From the IMG/VR virus record IMGVR_UViG_3300037472_000175, positions 1-25,990 of that record: a stretch of 25,990 nucleotides of DNA. One strand, given 5' to 3'. A program made the position numbers and the translations under genes. The stretch's first letter is position 1; every line of letters starts with the position of its first letter. Shown here one piece after another: positions 1,192 through 13,958 of the stretch. The notes below the pieces were generated by a model. That model saw nothing but the letters and a program-made list of their open reading frames with translations. It was not told the DNA's origin and did no database searches. The DNA is from a virus.

Positions 1192-2189
1192 GTGCGCTGC
1201 GTCCCTCCAACCTGCCGAAGCTGGCGGTTTGCCCGTGCTACGAGAGCAATCCCGTGGCCGGCCCTGCCGCTGAGCGCGGAACTTTGTTAGACACTGCGTT
1301 CCGTGCCGAACTGCTCGGACTGGAAGAACGCTTCTTGATCGCCAACAAACTTACGGCTGATGAGATCGCCGCTGTTAGCTGGTCGGTGTCGATGGTGCGG
1401 GCGATGTCGGGTCGCGAGCGCGTGCTTGCCCGTGAAGACGACTGCCGGGTGAAGATCCTCAATCTCACCGGCACGGCGGATGCCATCGTTCCGACCAAGC
1501 TCACCCACTTCGACCTGAAGACCGGTGCGCGGCGAAACTACCGCGAGCAGATGGCCGCGTATGCCCTCGGATTGATGGGCGCGCACTTCGCCTCGTCATG
1601 GACGGCGCACCTGTTGTTCTGCGACCAGCGCGAGATCGAGACGCACACGTTCACCTACGAGGAAGCACACTCCATCGTCGATCAGGTTGTCAAATCGTTC
1701 AACGATCCGGCAAAGCAGCCGAACCCGTGCGAATACTGCGGCTGGTGCGCCAAGGCGGACACCTGTCCGGCGCGTCTGGCGATGGTTGGCGAGACGCTAA
1801 CCGTGACGGAACCCGGCTTCGATTTCGATGCCGTGCTCGCCGATCCGGAAGAACTCGGACGGTTTCTATCAGCCTGTGCAGTGGTCGAGGACTTCCGCGA
1901 GCGGGCGAAGAAGATCGCCACCGAACGGATAAGGACCGGCGGCGATGTCCCCGGCTGGAAGCTCGTCACGCGCAAGGGCTCTGAATTCGTCGATTGCGAA
2001 ACAGTCGGCCACCACATCCAGCGAATGGGTTTCGGCCCGGTGCTCGCGGCCTACGGAAATCTATCAGCCTCCAAATTCCGCGACCTCTGGAGCCAGCGGA
2101 TGGCCAGCGGAAAACCATTCCCGGAAGAGTCGGTCAAACACGCCGCTCCATCGACCTATCTCAAACAAACCAAAACCAAAAAGAACTAA
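1188..2189 (+). CDS. PD-(D/E)XK nuclease with four-cysteine cluster (DUF2800/Cas4-like)
   Basis: A 333-residue RecB/Cas4-type nuclease. GTADAIV (Asp98) followed by HFDLKTG (Asp109, Lys111) forms the PD-(D/E)XK core. A C-terminal cluster of cysteines at 181, 184, 187 and 193 (C-x2-C-x2-C-x5-C) resembles the iron-sulphur or zinc cluster of Cas4 and AddB nucleases. Phage relatives (DUF2800) accompany AAA_24 ATPases and SSB-like proteins and are taken to be recombination exonucleases. The start overlaps the upstream stop as ATGA. The nuclease fold is well supported; exonuclease activity in recombination is inferred from family and neighbours. Confidence 0.8.
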   Translation: MSALRPSNLPKLAVCPCYESNPVAGPAAERGTLLDTAFRAELLGLEERFLIANKLTADEIAAVSWSVSMVRAMSGRERVLAREDDCRVKILNLTGTADAIVPTKLTHFDLKTGARRNYREQMAAYALGLMGAHFASSWTAHLLFCDQREIETHTFTYEEAHSIVDQVVKSFNDPAKQPNPCEYCGWCAKADTCPARLAMVGETLTVTEPGFDFDAVLADPEELGRFLSACAVVEDFRERAKKIATERIRTGGDVPGWKLVTRKGSEFVDCETVGHHIQRMGFGPVLAAYGNLSASKFRDLWSQRMASGKPFPEESVKHAAPSTYLKQTKTKKN

Positions 2190-6766: not shown

Positions 6767-7341
6767 ACTCCGACGACTACGCCAAAAAACAGGCGAAGAA
6801 GGATGCCCAATACGAACGGGACTACGAGGCATGGGTGAAGTCCATGACCCTCGCAGAACGTCGGGAAGCTGAGAAGCTCGGCCTGCTCAAACCCTGCCTG
6901 CAACGGCATGGCAACGGCGCACCGGATCACGACATGGCGGAATCAACGCGAGCCAGCCACACGCCGGACATCGCGGCCTTAGTCGATCATGAAGGCGAAA
7001 AGGCCGGCGCTGTGACGCATGACGCCATTGACGCGCTTCGTCTCTTCGTCGCTGACCTGATCGCCGAAGGGAACACCCGGCTCACCGTGGAGTGCCTGGC
7101 CGTGGCTCTGGGACTCAGCGCTTACAACGGCGAGAGCATGACCGCAATCGCCAACCGACACGGAGTCACTCGCGCCGCCGTCTCCAAGAGGTGTGTTGAC
7201 ATCATCACTCACCTGAACCTCCAGCCGTCCCGCGCCATGCGCAGCGAGAAGGCACGCAAGATTTACCGAAACTCACGAACCAAACATCACCGAAAGAAAA
7301 AACATGGACACCCTTACCGACCTGCAATCGATCAACAGTAA
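6763..7341 (+). CDS. Sigma-70 region 4-like HTH protein
   Basis: A 192-residue protein preceded by a strong AGGAGG Shine-Dalgarno (AAAGGAGGTTCAAA then ATG). Residues 1-50 are charged and helical. A segment near residues 120-150 (GESMTAIANRHGVTRAAVSKRC) is a clear helix-turn-helix of the sigma region 4 or response-regulator type. The C-terminus is very basic (KHHRKKKHGH), consistent with DNA binding. It is probably a phage regulator of transcription, and the repeat cluster immediately upstream could be its own operator. The gene overlaps the next one by 38 bases in a different frame. A full sigma factor is unlikely because no region 2 is visible. Confidence 0.65.
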   Translation: MNSDDYAKKQAKKDAQYERDYEAWVKSMTLAERREAEKLGLLKPCLQRHGNGAPDHDMAESTRASHTPDIAALVDHEGEKAGAVTHDAIDALRLFVADLIAEGNTRLTVECLAVALGLSAYNGESMTAIANRHGVTRAAVSKRCVDIITHLNLQPSRAMRSEKARKIYRNSRTKHHRKKKHGHPYRPAIDQQ

Positions 7342-7918
7342 ATTCACGATGACCCCATGCGGGATTGAGTTTCACGGCGATCTCAGCTTCGAAGAGTGGG
7401 AATCAATCGGCCGCAAGCTCGGGAACGCTGAACGCTCCATCGGTTTCATGATCGGAGACTGGATCAACTACGCCGAGAACAAGTGGGGCGAGAAATACAA
7501 CGAGGCCATCGCATGCACAGGGCTGGAATATCAGACTCTGGCCGGCTACGCCCACGTCGCCAAGCGGGTTGATTTTTTGGCGCGCGCCAAAAATTTGACC
7601 TTCCGCCATCACCGCACGGTGGCGAAACTGAAAGATTCCGAGGAGCAAAAATACTGGCTCGAAATGGCAGAGAAGCACGCGCTTAGCTATCGCCGCCTCC
7701 AGAAGTCCATCAACTTTGGTCGCATTGCTACAGAAAATGAGGTCGAGGGCGACCCTGCCGACCGTGGCTATGTCACATATCTCGCCCTGCTCAATCGCAT
7801 CCGCCGCTGGTGGGCACGCGAGACCCAGAAGGCACCAGTGGATGAATGGGACGAAGATCGGCGCGAGGGACTCAAGAAAGACTTCAAGCTGATCCTCGAC
7901 ATCTACGAGGCACTCTAA
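7304..7918 (+). CDS. LmbU-like DNA-binding regulator
   Basis: A 204-residue protein. Residues 15-130 match the pattern I know from LmbU, the actinobacterial antibiotic-cluster activator: FEEWESIGRKL, then IGDWINYAENKWGEKY, TGLEYQTLAGYAHVAKRV, LTFRHHRTVAKL and a final YWLEMAEKHALSYRRLQ. That arrangement resembles a ParB-type HTH and suggests DNA binding. The C-terminus carries a Trp-rich basic segment, RRWWARETQK. The ATG is preceded by an A-rich GAAAGAAAAAAC, similar to the leader seen before genes at 10816 and 11681. A role as phage transcription or partition regulator is inferred. Confidence 0.6.
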   Translation: MDTLTDLQSINSKFTMTPCGIEFHGDLSFEEWESIGRKLGNAERSIGFMIGDWINYAENKWGEKYNEAIACTGLEYQTLAGYAHVAKRVDFLARAKNLTFRHHRTVAKLKDSEEQKYWLEMAEKHALSYRRLQKSINFGRIATENEVEGDPADRGYVTYLALLNRIRRWWARETQKAPVDEWDEDRREGLKKDFKLILDIYEAL

Positions 7919-9752: not shown

Positions 9753-10559
9753 TCAGGCGGCCAGTTTTTTGGCGCGGGCGGTGTAGAATTTGTTCAGGCC
9801 TTTGGCGTTGATGGCTTGGAAGAACCACTTCATGCGGCTCATTCCGATGCCGGTATCTTCTGGGCGGTTGCGGACAGTGGCTGCGGCTTCGGCGGCGTCG
9901 AACATGCGGGCCATCAACCGCACCCAGTTGGTGATCTTGGCTGGATCGGTGGTTCCCGAGTGGTGGCGGACTTCCAGCGTCTGATGGCGGAAGTAGGAAT
10001 GGATGTTCAGCTTACGGTAGCGGCAGGGGTAGAGCGCCTTCATTTCCTCGATGCTGCGGCAGGCGTCGATCTTGCGGAAAATGCGGGAGCATTGGCCGCG
10101 ATGGTCGCCCGCTCCGACCGGTTCCCCGGAGAGGTTGGTCTGGCAGTAGGTGTTGGCGTTGCCCCGGCGGGAAGCGGGCTGAAAGGTATCGAGAACGTCC
10201 TCGAATTTCAGCCACATCTTGAAGAGGTTCTTCACCGCCTTGAGTGACATCGTGCGGGCGTCGAAATGGACATGGAGTCCGCACCGCCTGTCCACTTGGG
10301 CACCGGCGGCTTCGAGTGCGGCGGCGGCGATCCTGACTTCCTCGATGCCGGCCTCGCCTTCGAGAACTGGTGAGACGAGTTCCAAACCGCAGGAGCCGTC
10401 ATTGACGATCTTCCAGTGCGGTGTCGTGTCGTGGGAGTAGTAGGAAGATTCGACCCGGATGCCTGCGGCTCTCAAGCTCATGACGGCTTGCTCTTTGGTG
10501 ATGGTGGAGAGGAATTCGATCTCGACTCCGAAGCGGCGGGACATGGTCGGCGTTGTCAT
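9753..10559 (-). CDS. Phage amidoligase (Amidoligase_2, COOH-NH2 ligase)
   Basis: A 268-residue member of the glutamine-synthetase-like amidoligase family, which joins a carboxylate to an amine using ATP. Family marks appear in order: FGVEIEF near the N-terminus, DGSCGLELVSPVL near residue 55, CGLHVHFD near 95, and YRKLNIHS with LEVRHHSGTTDP near 205. The likely start is the ATG at 10559. A longer frame to 10661 crosses the divergent regulatory region and its added peptide looks random. Known relatives are proposed to make peptide-like modifications of proteins or metabolites. Target here is unknown. It heads the only minus-strand operon in the window. Confidence 0.75.
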   Translation of the reverse strand: MTTPTMSRRFGVEIEFLSTITKEQAVMSLRAAGIRVESSYYSHDTTPHWKIVNDGSCGLELVSPVLEGEAGIEEVRIAAAALEAAGAQVDRRCGLHVHFDARTMSLKAVKNLFKMWLKFEDVLDTFQPASRRGNANTYCQTNLSGEPVGAGDHRGQCSRIFRKIDACRSIEEMKALYPCRYRKLNIHSYFRHQTLEVRHHSGTTDPAKITNWVRLMARMFDAAEAAATVRNRPEDTGIGMSRMKWFFQAINAKGLNKFYTARAKKLAA

Positions 10560-10653
10560 GGGTAATATCTGCCATGGTGCCACCTCACGTCCATGGCTAA
10601 GTGGAGTTAGAGGAAAAAAGACAAAATATTTTCGCATCGTTTCACTCATAAAA

Positions 10654-10733
10654 CGTGCCAATCAAAACAGATTCGGAGCACTCCGAATGATGTGGAATTG
10701 GCACGCATCATGACGCTCATGCACCGTGCCAAT
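10654..10733. promoter_or_regulatory. Divergent intergenic operator-like repeats
   Basis: This lies between the minus-strand amidoligase operon and the + strand ligase cassette. CGTGCCAAT occurs at 10654-10662 and 10725-10733 and inverted at 10697-10705. Between them is a near-palindrome ATTCGGAG-CA-CTCCGAAT (10671-10688). The region is AT-richer than its flanks. The symmetry and the divergent layout suggest a shared control region for both transcripts; exact promoters cannot be fixed by eye. Confidence 0.5.
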
Positions 10734-10760
10734 TAACTATCTACCGGACGCCTCTTTGTG

Positions 10761-10830
10761 CCGAAAGAAAGACGAAAATGACATGGACTCAAGTTGTCAG
10801 ACTGGCAGATGAGGGATGATGAAAGCAATA
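10761..10830 (+). promoter_or_regulatory. Leader repeat copy 1 with 9-codon micro-ORF MDSSCQTGR
   Basis: First of three near-identical leaders. It reads GAAAGAAAGACGAAAA, then a short ORF at 10783-10812 encoding MDSSCQTGR-stop, then GGG and the start of the DNA ligase (10816 or 10819). Bases TCAGACTGGCAGATGAGGGATGATGAAAGCAA are nearly shared with copy 2. An overlapping frame from 10778 encodes a 13-residue peptide ending LADEG, so the coding frame is not certain. Confidence 0.6.
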
Positions 10831-11595
10831 ACTCCAAACCTAACGACGAAGCCACCGATGCTGGCGAAAAACTGGGACAAGACCATGCGGCCGGCCGGCT
10901 GGTGGATGTCAGAAAAACTCGACGGAGTCCGCGCCATTTGGGACGGGGAACATTTTCGCTCCCGTGGCGGCAACATCTTCCACGCCCCGGCTTGGTTTAA
11001 AGCAGGACTGCCCGCACTGCCGCTGGACGGCGAGCTGTTCGTCGGGCGAGGGAAGTTCAACGATGCGGTGAGTATCGTCCGATCCATGACCGCCGACTGG
11101 TCACCGGTTAGGTATTTGGTCTTCGATGTCCAAGCCGACGGGCCGACAGAAGACCGCCAACGCACGTTGCTAGCCCTGCAACTCCCCAGCCATGTCTTGA
11201 TAGTCGAGCAAGTGCGCTGTCAGTCAGATAACGCCCTGCTTGATTTCGAGCGTTCCATCCTCAACGGCAAAGGCGAGGGCGTCATGCTCCGCGCCCCGCT
11301 TTCACCCTATGAATTCAAGAGGTCCGGCCACCTCCGCAAGCTCAAGCGATTCATCGACGACGAGGCCACCGTGATCGGTCACCAGGACGGCGAGGGCAAA
11401 CACACGGGGCGGCTCGGAGCGCTGGTCTGCCAACTCAGGGACGGAACCACGTTCCGCGCAGGGTCCGGGTTCACCGACGCCGAAAGGGAAACCCCGCCGG
11501 CCATCGGCTCGATCGTCACCGTCCGCTACTTCGAACTGACGCCCGACGGTGTGCCACGCTTCCCGACTTTCATCGCCATTCGCAACTACGAATAG
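10816..11595 (+). CDS. ATP-dependent DNA ligase (minimal type)
   Basis: A 259-residue ligase with the nucleotidyltransferase motifs in order: motif I SEKLDGVRA (AMP-accepting Lys34, Arg39), motif III LDGELF (residues 70-75), motif IV GEGVMLRAP near 155 and motif V KLKRF near 176. A C-terminal OB-fold-like part follows from residue 180 (ATVIGHQDGEGKHTGRLGAL). It seals nicks in duplex DNA using ATP. There is no signal peptide, so it acts in the cytoplasm, unlike many minimal bacterial ligases. Length fits the smallest phage and LigE-type enzymes. It is the first gene of the + strand accessory run and sits directly behind leader repeat copy 1. The second Met (10819) is an equally good start. Confidence 0.88.
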   Translation: MMKAITPNLTTKPPMLAKNWDKTMRPAGWWMSEKLDGVRAIWDGEHFRSRGGNIFHAPAWFKAGLPALPLDGELFVGRGKFNDAVSIVRSMTADWSPVRYLVFDVQADGPTEDRQRTLLALQLPSHVLIVEQVRCQSDNALLDFERSILNGKGEGVMLRAPLSPYEFKRSGHLRKLKRFIDDEATVIGHQDGEGKHTGRLGALVCQLRDGTTFRAGSGFTDAERETPPAIGSIVTVRYFELTPDGVPRFPTFIAIRNYE

Positions 11596-11621
11596 GCCCC
11601 ATAAATCCATGCAGCTATCAC

Positions 11622-11692
11622 CCGAAAGAAAGACGAAAAATGATATGGACGTGCCCAATCAGACTGGCAGATGAAGGACGATGAAAGCAACA
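11622..11692 (+). promoter_or_regulatory. Leader repeat copy 2 with 9-codon micro-ORF MDVPNQTGR
   Basis: Second copy of the leader. The micro-ORF is at 11645-11674 (MDVPNQTGR-stop), six bases before the ATG of the 56-residue gene at 11681. The upstream purine run has one more A than copy 1. The downstream N-terminus (MKATT) also resembles that of the ligase (MKAIT), so the repeat extends into the coding sequence. Confidence 0.6.
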
Positions 11693-11851
11693 ACACTATC
11701 CATAGAGGCCCACGGAGTAAAAGGCATGAAGTCCGCCCCCTGGCACAAGACATTCAAGAGCGTCGAGGCGCTCAATACATGGGTCGAAAAGAACGGCGCA
11801 GAGGTCCACGGAATCCGCGAGATCCAAGCCGATGAACTGACGTTCCGCTGA
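11681..11851 (+). CDS. Small hypothetical protein behind leader copy 2
   Basis: A 56-residue protein of unknown function, too short to be noticed without its leader. It starts MKATTLSIE, contains TFKSVEALNTWVEKNGAEV (a helix-loop pattern), and ends LTFR. The sequence looks like a small globular alpha/beta protein, with no membrane segment. The leader repeat directly upstream and the position within a run of small genes support expression. Confidence 0.55.
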   Translation: MKATTLSIEAHGVKGMKSAPWHKTFKSVEALNTWVEKNGAEVHGIREIQADELTFR

Positions 11852-11876
11852 AAATTCAACCGCAACCAATACTAAC

Positions 11877-12095
11877 ATGAGCACCATCGACTTCACTAAC
11901 TGGAAAGACGCCCAACTCAAGATGACCCCAGACTTCATGTTCGGGGACCAACTGCCACTCGCACAAGCCGAGATTCAACGTCGCAAGGACGAGGGCATCT
12001 GGCTCACCGACGGCAGCACCGAGCGGGTCGCACAGATGATCCGCGACAACACGCCTGCCTCCCGCCGCAAGCTCTCCCGCCGCGTCCGCCGCTAA
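11877..12095 (+). CDS. Small hypothetical protein
   Basis: A 72-residue protein of unknown function. The first two-thirds are mixed and acidic, and the C-terminus is very basic (RRKLSRRVRR), suggesting contact with nucleic acid. It lies 25 bases after the preceding gene and 24 before the next, all co-directional. No recognisable motif. Confidence 0.5.
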   Translation: MSTIDFTNWKDAQLKMTPDFMFGDQLPLAQAEIQRRKDEGIWLTDGSTERVAQMIRDNTPASRRKLSRRVRR

Positions 12096-12119
12096 CAACC
12101 CACCCAACCACACACCACC

Positions 12120-12410
12120 ATGGACATTGAATACGTCAAACAACACCGCAGCCTGACCCTCGAATTCGGACGCGGCGAAACCTACTGCTCCAACAAGCCG
12201 ACGCTCTACGGCCACTCGACCTACGGACGCAGCTCGGTTCTCGCCGGTCGCCCACGCCGGGTATTTCTCGAAAGCTGGGATGATCTGGAATCCGCCCGCG
12301 CCGAACTCAAGGCCGCGAAGATCCGCTATGCCGACCTCTGCGATGCGGGCGGCTCCACCCACATCCCGGTGGACGTCATCACCGCAGGAATTCCCGACGA
12401 AGACATCTAA
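12120..12410 (+). CDS. Hypothetical protein
   Basis: A 96-residue protein of unknown function. It begins MDIEYVKQHRSLTLEFGRGE and has a Gly/Ser/Tyr-rich middle (LYGHSTYGRSS) followed by a helical ESARAELKAAKIRYADL. There is no membrane segment or signal peptide. It belongs to the accessory run and is followed 19 bases later by the DUF2786 gene. Confidence 0.5.
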   Translation: MDIEYVKQHRSLTLEFGRGETYCSNKPTLYGHSTYGRSSVLAGRPRRVFLESWDDLESARAELKAAKIRYADLCDAGGSTHIPVDVITAGIPDEDI

Positions 12411-12429
12411 CCCCAACCACCAAGATCCC

Positions 12430-13131
12430 ATGAAATCAGAATCCGAAATCCTCGATAAAATCCGCAAGCTCCTCCGACTGGCCGACCGCTCCCGCGGTTC
12501 CACCGAGAACGAAGCCAAGGTGGCACTGGCCAAGGCGCAGGAGTTGATGACCCGCCACAACATTGACTCGGCGCTCCTCCGCATGGAACGCGGCGAATCC
12601 AGCGGCGCGTCCTTCACTGTCAACAAAGGCAAGGTCGATCTGCCGAAGAGCCTCAATCCGGCAGACCTGATGATTCTCTCGATCCTGCAGGCGCACTTCA
12701 ACGTGAAGACGATCCTGATGCCCAACGGTCGCGGGACACCGGTGGACATCATCGGTGCCGCCGCCGACATCGACTTCGCGATCTACGCATTCAACTACCT
12801 GCGGCAGACATTCTTCCGCTGTTGGAACGAGTTCAAACTGACCCACGCCAACCCCGACAAGGCATCCTACTACCGGGGCCTGCGCGACGGACTGAACGCC
12901 GAACTCAAGGCAGCCAAGGAACGCGCCGAGCAATCCTACGCCACCGACCAGCGCCAGGCATACGGACTGGTCGTCGTGGATCAGGAGGCGGTGATCGCCC
13001 GCTACGTCGAGGAGAAATACGGCAAGCTCCGCAACCGCAACCAACGCCGCCGCAACCTGCATTCCGGCAGTTACGTCGCCGGTGAAACCAAAGGCCGGAC
13101 CATCCAAATCAACCGCCCGCTTCCGTCATGA
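12430..13131 (+). CDS. DUF2786 domain protein
   Basis: A 233-residue protein. The N-terminal 50 residues are a clear DUF2786 domain: ILDKIRKLLRLA, then STENEAKVALAKAQELMTRHNID. The rest (residues about 75-215) is a helical and mixed domain like that commonly paired with DUF2786, ending in a basic segment (RNRNQRRRN). DUF2786 proteins are frequent in phages and plasmids, and their function is not established. The chosen ATG at 12430 matches the usual N-terminus of the family. Its last bases touch the leader of the next gene. Confidence 0.75.
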   Translation: MKSESEILDKIRKLLRLADRSRGSTENEAKVALAKAQELMTRHNIDSALLRMERGESSGASFTVNKGKVDLPKSLNPADLMILSILQAHFNVKTILMPNGRGTPVDIIGAAADIDFAIYAFNYLRQTFFRCWNEFKLTHANPDKASYYRGLRDGLNAELKAAKERAEQSYATDQRQAYGLVVVDQEAVIARYVEEKYGKLRNRNQRRRNLHSGSYVAGETKGRTIQINRPLPS

Positions 13132-13138
13132 AATCCAT

Positions 13139-13210
13139 CCAACAGAAAGACGAAAAAAGACATGGACGCGCCCGATCAGACGGGCAGATGAGGGATGCTA
13201 TGACAACAGC
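13139..13210 (+). promoter_or_regulatory. Leader repeat copy 3 with 9-codon micro-ORF MDAPDQTGR
   Basis: Third copy of the leader. The micro-ORF is at 13162-13191 (MDAPDQTGR-stop), eight bases before the ATG at 13200. Here a 5-bp hairpin GCCCG-ATCAGA-CGGGC can form within the micro-ORF; in the other copies it is weaker. The alternative overlapping frame lacks a start in this copy, which favours the MD...QTGR frame. Confidence 0.6.
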
Positions 13211-13430
13211 ATCCATCACTAACAACCACCTGACCAAGGCGATGCAGCAAGGCATCCGCGAGCTTGAGAAAAACGGCTTCCACGCCCGGCGCATCCTGCC
13301 GGTCGATCCGATGGCCGGCATCCATGCCCGCGAGTTCCGCGCCGACTTCGCCAAGCAAACTCAAACCGGACTGCTGGTGTTCAGCGTCCGGATCGATACC
13401 GACGGCAACGTCACCAACCCCAAACCATAA
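13200..13430 (+). CDS. Small hypothetical protein behind leader copy 3
   Basis: A 76-residue protein of unknown function, from MTTASITNNH to the stop at 13430. The middle (AMQQGIRELEKNGFHARRI) is helical, and the end (GLLVFSVRIDTDGNV) is a beta hairpin. I chose 13200 over the in-frame ATG at 13128, because the latter would translate straight through the leader repeat and produce a low-sense peptide. Twelve bases separate it from the next gene. Confidence 0.55.
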   Translation: MTTASITNNHLTKAMQQGIRELEKNGFHARRILPVDPMAGIHAREFRADFAKQTQTGLLVFSVRIDTDGNVTNPKP

Positions 13431-13442
13431 CCAAACACCACA

Positions 13443-13958
13443 ATGAACAAACTGTATTGGATCGTCGCAGACGACAAAGAAACCAACGTATTCGAAGGCC
13501 GCTACCAAGGACGCACCCGAGGCGAGGCATTGAAACATCTCAAGCAGTCCATCGGGCGCAAGACGCTCAACGGATTGGTCTTCACCATCACCGAAATACC
13601 GGTGCCACTGATCCGCGAAATCGTCGCGGAAATCCTCGCCGGTGGTGACGGCAACGTCACCCCCGCCGCGAATGTCGTGCCGCTCACCCGACCGGTGCCT
13701 GATCCCAGCCCGGGACGTTACGACGCGTTCGCCGACGCGGCTGAGCCTGAACCAACGCCAGCGAAGGCCACGACACCCAAGGCGAAGGCATCCAAGCCCG
13801 CCAAGAAGGTCGGCAATCCCGGCCACGGCGACGAGCACTGGTCACAGGTCCGCTCCCATTGGGAGGAATGCCGCAGCGTGAAGCAGACCGCCGAACATTT
13901 CGGCCTTTCGCCCAACACGCTGAAAACCCGTATCCGCAGGGAGGGCTGGAACAAATGA
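13443..13958 (+). CDS. HTH protein with Ala/Pro/Lys linker
   Basis: A 171-residue two-part protein. Residues 1-65 form a small alpha/beta domain (YWIVADDKETNVFEGRY, then GEALKHLKQSIG). A low-complexity Ala/Pro/Lys linker covers about 85-122. The C-terminus is a helix-turn-helix, VKQTAEHFGLSPNTLKTRIRREGW, of the type seen in small regulators. It is likely a DNA-binding regulator or an accessory factor. The stop overlaps the next start as ATGA. Confidence 0.6.
   Translation: MNKLYWIVADDKETNVFEGRYQGRTRGEALKHLKQSIGRKTLNGLVFTITEIPVPLIREIVAEILAGGDGNVTPAANVVPLTRPVPDPSPGRYDAFADAAEPEPTPAKATTPKAKASKPAKKVGNPGHGDEHWSQVRSHWEECRSVKQTAEHFGLSPNTLKTRIRREGWNK

Follow-up and report, generated by a model that had tools for sequence, protein, structure and literature searches.

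The window, by which we mean the whole stretch of DNA analysed, is an IMG/VR virus record of 25,990 bases. Direct reading and a repeat search revealed three near-identical leaders with their ATGGAC at 10783, 11645 and 13162, and the pattern CAGACKGGCAGATGARGGA gave exactly 3 matches against 0.01 expected by chance. As the first-pass annotation had described, each leader carries a purine run of the GAAAGACGAAAA type and a micro-ORF of 9 codons plus TGA, and the downstream ATGs at 10816, 11681 and 13200 lie 3, 6 and 8 nt past the TGA, respectively. These three leaders are real, but the count of three was incomplete: a fourth, diverged copy was found on the minus strand at 10595-10568, head-to-head with copy 1. 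The features of the locus are as follows.

9753-10559, minus strand: amidoligase gene of the leftward arm
10568-10595, minus strand: core element copy 4, CATGGAC-N13-ATGGCAGA, diverged, 8 nt before the amidoligase start at 10559
10698-10732, unstranded: 35-bp palindrome TTGGCA-N7-TG-N5-CA-N7-TGCCAA, 84 bp upstream of copy 1
10739-10745, plus strand: -10-like heptamer ATCTACC (family consensus RTCTWWC)
10763-10781, plus strand: A/G-rich flank GAAAGAAAGACGAAAATGA upstream of copy 1, by direct reading
10782-10809, plus strand: core element copy 1, CATGGAC-N13-CTGGCAGA, before the DNA ligase gene
10783-10812, plus strand: micro-ORF MDSSCQTGR of copy 1, 9 codons plus TGA
10816-11595, plus strand: ATP-dependent DNA ligase gene, start at 10816 or 10819
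11644-11671, plus strand: core element copy 2, TATGGAC-N13-CTGGCAGA, before the small ORF at 11681
11645-11674, plus strand: micro-ORF MDVPNQTGR of copy 2, 9 codons plus TGA
11681-11851, plus strand: small ORF of 56 aa, IEAHGVKGMK family
13161-13188, plus strand: core element copy 3, CATGGAC-N13-CGGGCAGA, before the small ORF at 13200
13162-13191, plus strand: micro-ORF MDAPDQTGR of copy 3, 9 codons plus TGA
13200-13430, plus strand: small ORF of 76 aa, MTTAS family (the MTTAS gene), alternative in-frame start at 13128

Copies 2 and 3 are preceded by a flank of the same A/G-rich type as copy 1. The reading frame of copy 4 has 12 codons, and its stop overlaps the amidoligase start as ATGA. No family match was obtained for the small ORF at 11681-11851 or for that at 13200-13430. 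The in-frame ATG of the MTTAS gene at 13128 overlaps the preceding stop as ATGA, and given this ATG the leader of gene 13200 could be coding in another frame. The upstream frame of the MTTAS gene (13128-13430 in the window) was open through the leader in the copies inspected by eye.

Comparison of 117 distinct catalogued copies showed that the constant part of the leader is CATGGAC-N13-CNGGCAGA, a bipartite element of 28 bases. The bases A1, T2, A5, C6, A25 and A27 were never altered, and no length change was observed in any of the catalogued copies. Variable-gap scans yielded no length variants with leader-type flanks; the matches were unrelated coding sequence only. These copies are distinct, but their number is not one of independent events, because they are related by descent and gene conversion. 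The element is always in the sense orientation relative to the downstream gene, and the proteins encoded downstream belong to ∼13 unrelated families. GGCAGA ends 8 nt short of the start codon in the amidoligase copies and L299, 9 nt short of it in the first-gene copies and most MAYR copies, and 11 nt short of it in the MTTAS-gene copies. On its upstream side the element is flanked by either an A/G-rich sequence (AAAAAAGAC) or CTTAGMC. An intact element was also found ahead of vestigial ORFs (L023, L039, L068, L073, L011 and L276; for example MKAT and MKATTPNP, each followed by a stop), which argues for a function at the operon head without separating RNA from DNA, and also fits a role at the level of transcription. 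Elsewhere in the window, a 204-aa gene at 7304-7918 with a weak ParB-HTH match has the same A-rich GAAAGAAAAAACATGGAC start context without the second box.

Dozens of IMG/VR contigs, together with contigs of Akkermansiaceae and Verrucomicrobiaceae MAGs, carry further copies of the element, which bears out the suggestion that it is a conserved phage element linked to gene starts. The exact degenerate pattern was matched in 67 stretches of IMG/VR. In GTDB, the matches judged real by their flanks were all on contigs of Akkermansiaceae, Verrucomicrobiaceae or Akkermansia MAGs or genomes, and nine such genomes had only 1-3 matches apiece. No convincing match was found among the INPHARED phages. In 20 viral records there was one divergent locus per phage, usually with 1-4 copies; nearly all copies thus sit at this one locus and are not spread phage-wide, contrary to the phage regulon proposed at first. 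Homologues of the DUF2786 gene at ≥66% identity came mostly from the same leader-bearing contigs, and the distant homologues whose upstream DNA was read had no element. In the 103-kb record IMGVR_UViG_3300042564_006100 a complete leader locus occurs twice, near 28-29 kb and again, 57 kb away, near 85-88 kb, as would result from two phages in one record or from a duplication. A solitary leader (L092, ∼1379-1408, minus strand) followed by a short unrelated ORF was observed in a 582-kb Akkermansiaceae contig and is possibly a prophage remnant.

Nine codons and the stop are kept in 78 of the 117 copies. The micro-ORF is longer in 20 and runs in frame into the gene in 7; with 2 more that have no stop before the gene start, 9 copies are stop-less. 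ATA replaces ATG in 5 copies from four phages, and GTG or TTG, which are tolerated start variants, never takes its place in the 117 copies. A premature in-frame stop is present in 5 copies from three lineages, and the TGA was lost in at least four lineages: L165/L292 (TCA), L013/L279/L280 (TCG), L290/L335 (TCA) and L276/L277 (TGG). In one phage (L260/L012, IMGVR_UViG_3300042885_001483), ATA was found in both the first-gene and the amidoligase leaders while ATG was kept in the MTTAS-gene leader, a pattern that suggests a concerted change.

Pairwise pN/pS ratios for micro-ORF codons 2-9, which are rough for such short and related sequences, were 3.7 in the amidoligase set (0.27 for its genes), 0.97, 2.96 and 1.97 in the three first-gene sets (0.24, 0.05 and 0.34 for the genes), and 0.40 in the MTTAS-gene set (0.50 for its gene). 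In four of the five gene sets, codons 3-7 drift with no sign of purifying selection, and codon 7 varies synonymously in the MTTAS-gene copies. The third bases of GAC, GGC and AGA almost never vary, and not at all in the MTTAS-gene copies or the amidoligase set. Ratios of ∼1-3.7 in four of the five sets, together with ATA starts, premature stops and TGA losses, speak against the conserved 9-codon peptide that the first-pass annotation had put forward. The peptide, start and stop of the micro-ORF are not the conserved object, and the 9-codon micro-ORF inside the element is probably largely incidental. Indels that break the micro-ORF were sought in the homologous leaders and none occurs; a fixed leader length is at least as much to be expected of a linear recognition element as of a micro-ORF.

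Strict and relaxed Rfam searches returned nothing relevant for the leader, and no description of the motif was found in the literature, in agreement with the earlier statement that no named motif fits. RNAalifold predicted no shared structure, whether from the first-gene set or from all copies together. Taken by itself, the MTTAS-gene set shows some folding (mean z of -2.2 against shuffled folds), and its covariation term is minor. Stems pairing GCCA with UGGC and GCCC with GGGC were considered as candidates and rejected, being broken in most copies. The 16S tail of one host genome was CACCUCCUUU, carrying the normal CACCUCC. GGCAGA was considered as an alternative Shine-Dalgarno sequence and was rejected for showing no pairing with the host 16S tail; weak GAGGG or GAAGG is added only in the first-gene and MTTAS-gene copies. 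Start-context enrichment across the phage genes was uninformative. A consensus scan of 10480-13500 for sigma-70 promoters, taken as TTGACA/TATAAT-like hexamers 16-18 nt apart, revealed none. The window proteins scanned gave only weak HTH matches and included no confident phage sigma factor or RNA polymerase.

Related phages carry the palindrome in 71 distinct versions, with one or two in each divergent region; it precedes most arm-head copies and some internal ones. The spacing between the palindrome and the RTCTWWC that follows it is constant at 6 nt. The distance from palindrome to element is mostly 74-76, 84-86 or 92-93 bp; the values of ∼66, 75, 85 and 92 are suggestive of helical phasing and come from too few independent events to establish it. 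Because internal copies occur without the palindrome (MTTAS-gene copies and window copy 2), the element is independent of the putative palindrome promoter unit. Left arms headed by the MAYR gene have no palindrome, and in these four phages 41-44 bp separate the divergent copies, which leaves little room for two separate promoters. The 35-bp palindrome is probably the operator of a regulator. RTCTWWC is not convincing as a sigma-70 -10. We infer that the two would together form an operator-promoter, with the element then ∼20-30 nt inside the mRNA; by this geometry, the 5' UTR probably includes the element. At 10671-10688 of the window, a perfect palindrome ATTCGGAGCACTCCGAAT adjoins the putative operator, with variants in several relatives.

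The conservation, fixed geometry, position and orientation of the element, and the non-conservation of peptide, start and stop, were read directly from the copies. Our best reading, which we hold tentatively, is that of a start-associated element read in mRNA at translation initiation in a clade of Verrucomicrobiota (Akkermansiaceae-type) phages. It would form part of the transcribed 5' UTR where each arm of the divergent operon begins, and also before at least one internal gene. There it would serve as a linear bipartite recognition site around translation initiation, acting as an initiation enhancer or as a translational operator for a phage or host factor. Arm-head transcription would probably begin upstream, at the palindrome-controlled promoter. 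The upstream promoter, the RNA-level reading and the translational control are what we infer from sequence. In favour of this reading are the fixed box spacing and near-invariant bases of the 117 distinct copies, the sense orientation 8, 9 or 11 nt before the starts of ∼13 unrelated families, and the pN/pS of 0.97-3.7 in four of the five sets with the ATA starts and the stop gains and losses. The arm-head copies behind the palindrome and RTCTWWC, which would put the start site upstream of the element, also count for it, as do the internal copies that have no palindrome and the layout shared with SAS/ESAS. Against it count the weak RTCTWWC, the promoterless consensus scan, the palindrome-less MAYR phages, the intact elements ahead of vestigial ORFs, the relatedness of the copies, and the micro-ORF ratio of the MTTAS set being slightly under that of its gene. 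A more specific proposal, in which CAUGGAC-N13-CNGGCAGA in the 5' UTR is the target of a phage-encoded RNA-binding factor or an altered ribosome that thereby selects these starts during infection without a Shine-Dalgarno sequence, is in our judgement unlikely.

The element might instead be read as DNA, either as a phage-specific promoter with CATGGAC as a -35-like and GGCAGA as a -10-like box and a near-leaderless mRNA, or as an asymmetric stoperator-like repressor site. Box centres ∼21 bp apart, a fixed spacing of about two helical turns, would suit such a role, as would the A-rich tract upstream, the non-conserved RNA fold, the location at the heads of both arms, the 41-44 bp between divergent copies in four phages, the lack of any other sigma-70-type promoter found, and the retention of the element where the adjacent ORF is vestigial. 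However, GGCAGA is poor as a -10, the window proteins scanned include no confident phage sigma factor or RNA polymerase, most arm-head copies are preceded by a separate unit of palindrome plus RTCTWWC, and a distance to the start codon that hardly leaves 8-11 nt is rather what translation signals show. We regard a DNA-level element as somewhat unlikely.

It is quite unlikely that the micro-ORF is itself translated, with a start at ATGGAC in A-rich context, a stop and re-initiation (coupling or attenuation), the peptide sequence being of minor importance. Such a mechanism could account for the 9 codons plus stop in 78 of the 117 distinct copies, and for two further observations: out-of-frame copies mostly terminate ahead of the gene start or overlapping it, and the 7 in-frame copies that have no stop are fused with the gene. 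A real gene, the one at 7304, likewise opens with ATGGAC in an A-rich context, and in the MTTAS-gene copies position 21 varies freely just where the Thr codon has four-fold degeneracy. But four phages have ATA in place of ATG and none has GTG or TTG there, premature stops arose in three lineages and the TGA was lost in at least four, pN/pS is ∼1-3.7 in most sets, in-frame indels are absent, the micro-ORF of one copy (L296/L322) extends into the gene in a different frame, and an overlapping stop is automatic for genes starting with ATGA. That the leader is mainly a recombination joint, a duplicated linker for gene swap or deletion at the operon head with its similarity due to gene conversion, seems very improbable. 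The leader and first codons are common to different first genes, the first-gene copy of L039 has the core of its own MTTAS-gene copy, ATA is present in both leaders of the L012 phage, and vestigial ORFs are left after the leader, all of which such a joint would explain. Homogenisation alone does not predict near-invariance confined to the two boxes with drift in the intervening 9-13 nt, and the strict position and orientation relative to the start codon also oppose it. On the plus strand of the contig of L039/L022, at 3616, the first-gene leader (L264) has the core of that phage's own MTTAS-gene leader, which suggests gene conversion between leaders.

As far as the literature and libraries searched show, this family of start-associated elements is previously undescribed. 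The closest layout is that of SAS/ESAS of cluster K mycobacteriophages, start-associated asymmetric sequences of unknown function (PMC3203893, PMC12699233, PMC11373665 [Adephagia]), a subset of which have an upstream inverted repeat with a putative promoter (PMC3203893, PMC11373665). Both are short asymmetric sequences a few nt from the starts of unrelated genes of non-structural regions, in one orientation, and absent from host genes; both have an upstream inverted repeat linked to a subset of sites, here the 35-bp palindrome, which is missing before the internal MTTAS-gene copies. SAS is a 13-bp sequence, GGGATAGGAGCCC, with a Shine-Dalgarno sequence, whereas the element here is an unrelated bipartite 28-nt sequence whose second box is not Shine-Dalgarno. 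There are 1-4 copies at one divergent locus here versus 11-19 across an arm, and the micro-ORF inside most copies and the different palindrome further distinguish the two. CATGGAC-N13-CNGGCAGA did not match the SAS consensus GGGATAGGAGCCC. By analogy, the element may work like SAS/ESAS, but it is not a member of the mycobacteriophage family, because it is unrelated in sequence and lacks the consensus that defines SAS.

The stoperators of L5 are asymmetric, oriented with transcription and repeated in short intergenic spaces, and the element shares these properties. The L5 sites are 13 bp long and bound by the phage repressor, whereas the element is tied to start codons. These sites of L5, a cluster A mycobacteriophage, have themselves been contrasted with SAS (PMC3203893). 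Leader-peptide attenuators and coupling micro-ORFs likewise have a short ORF ending next to a gene start; here, in contrast, there is no codon bias to one amino acid, the peptide is not conserved, start and stop were repeatedly lost, and no leader fold is conserved.

The natural variants of the element (ATA starts, lost stops and vestigial ORFs) help to separate the peptide, RNA and DNA readings. The locus offers a second, unrelated case of the SAS/ESAS layout, with a probable palindromic operator, a short spacer and a start-associated element, in phages of another bacterial phylum. This suggests that gene-start-linked recognition elements may be a recurring phage strategy and not a mycobacteriophage oddity.
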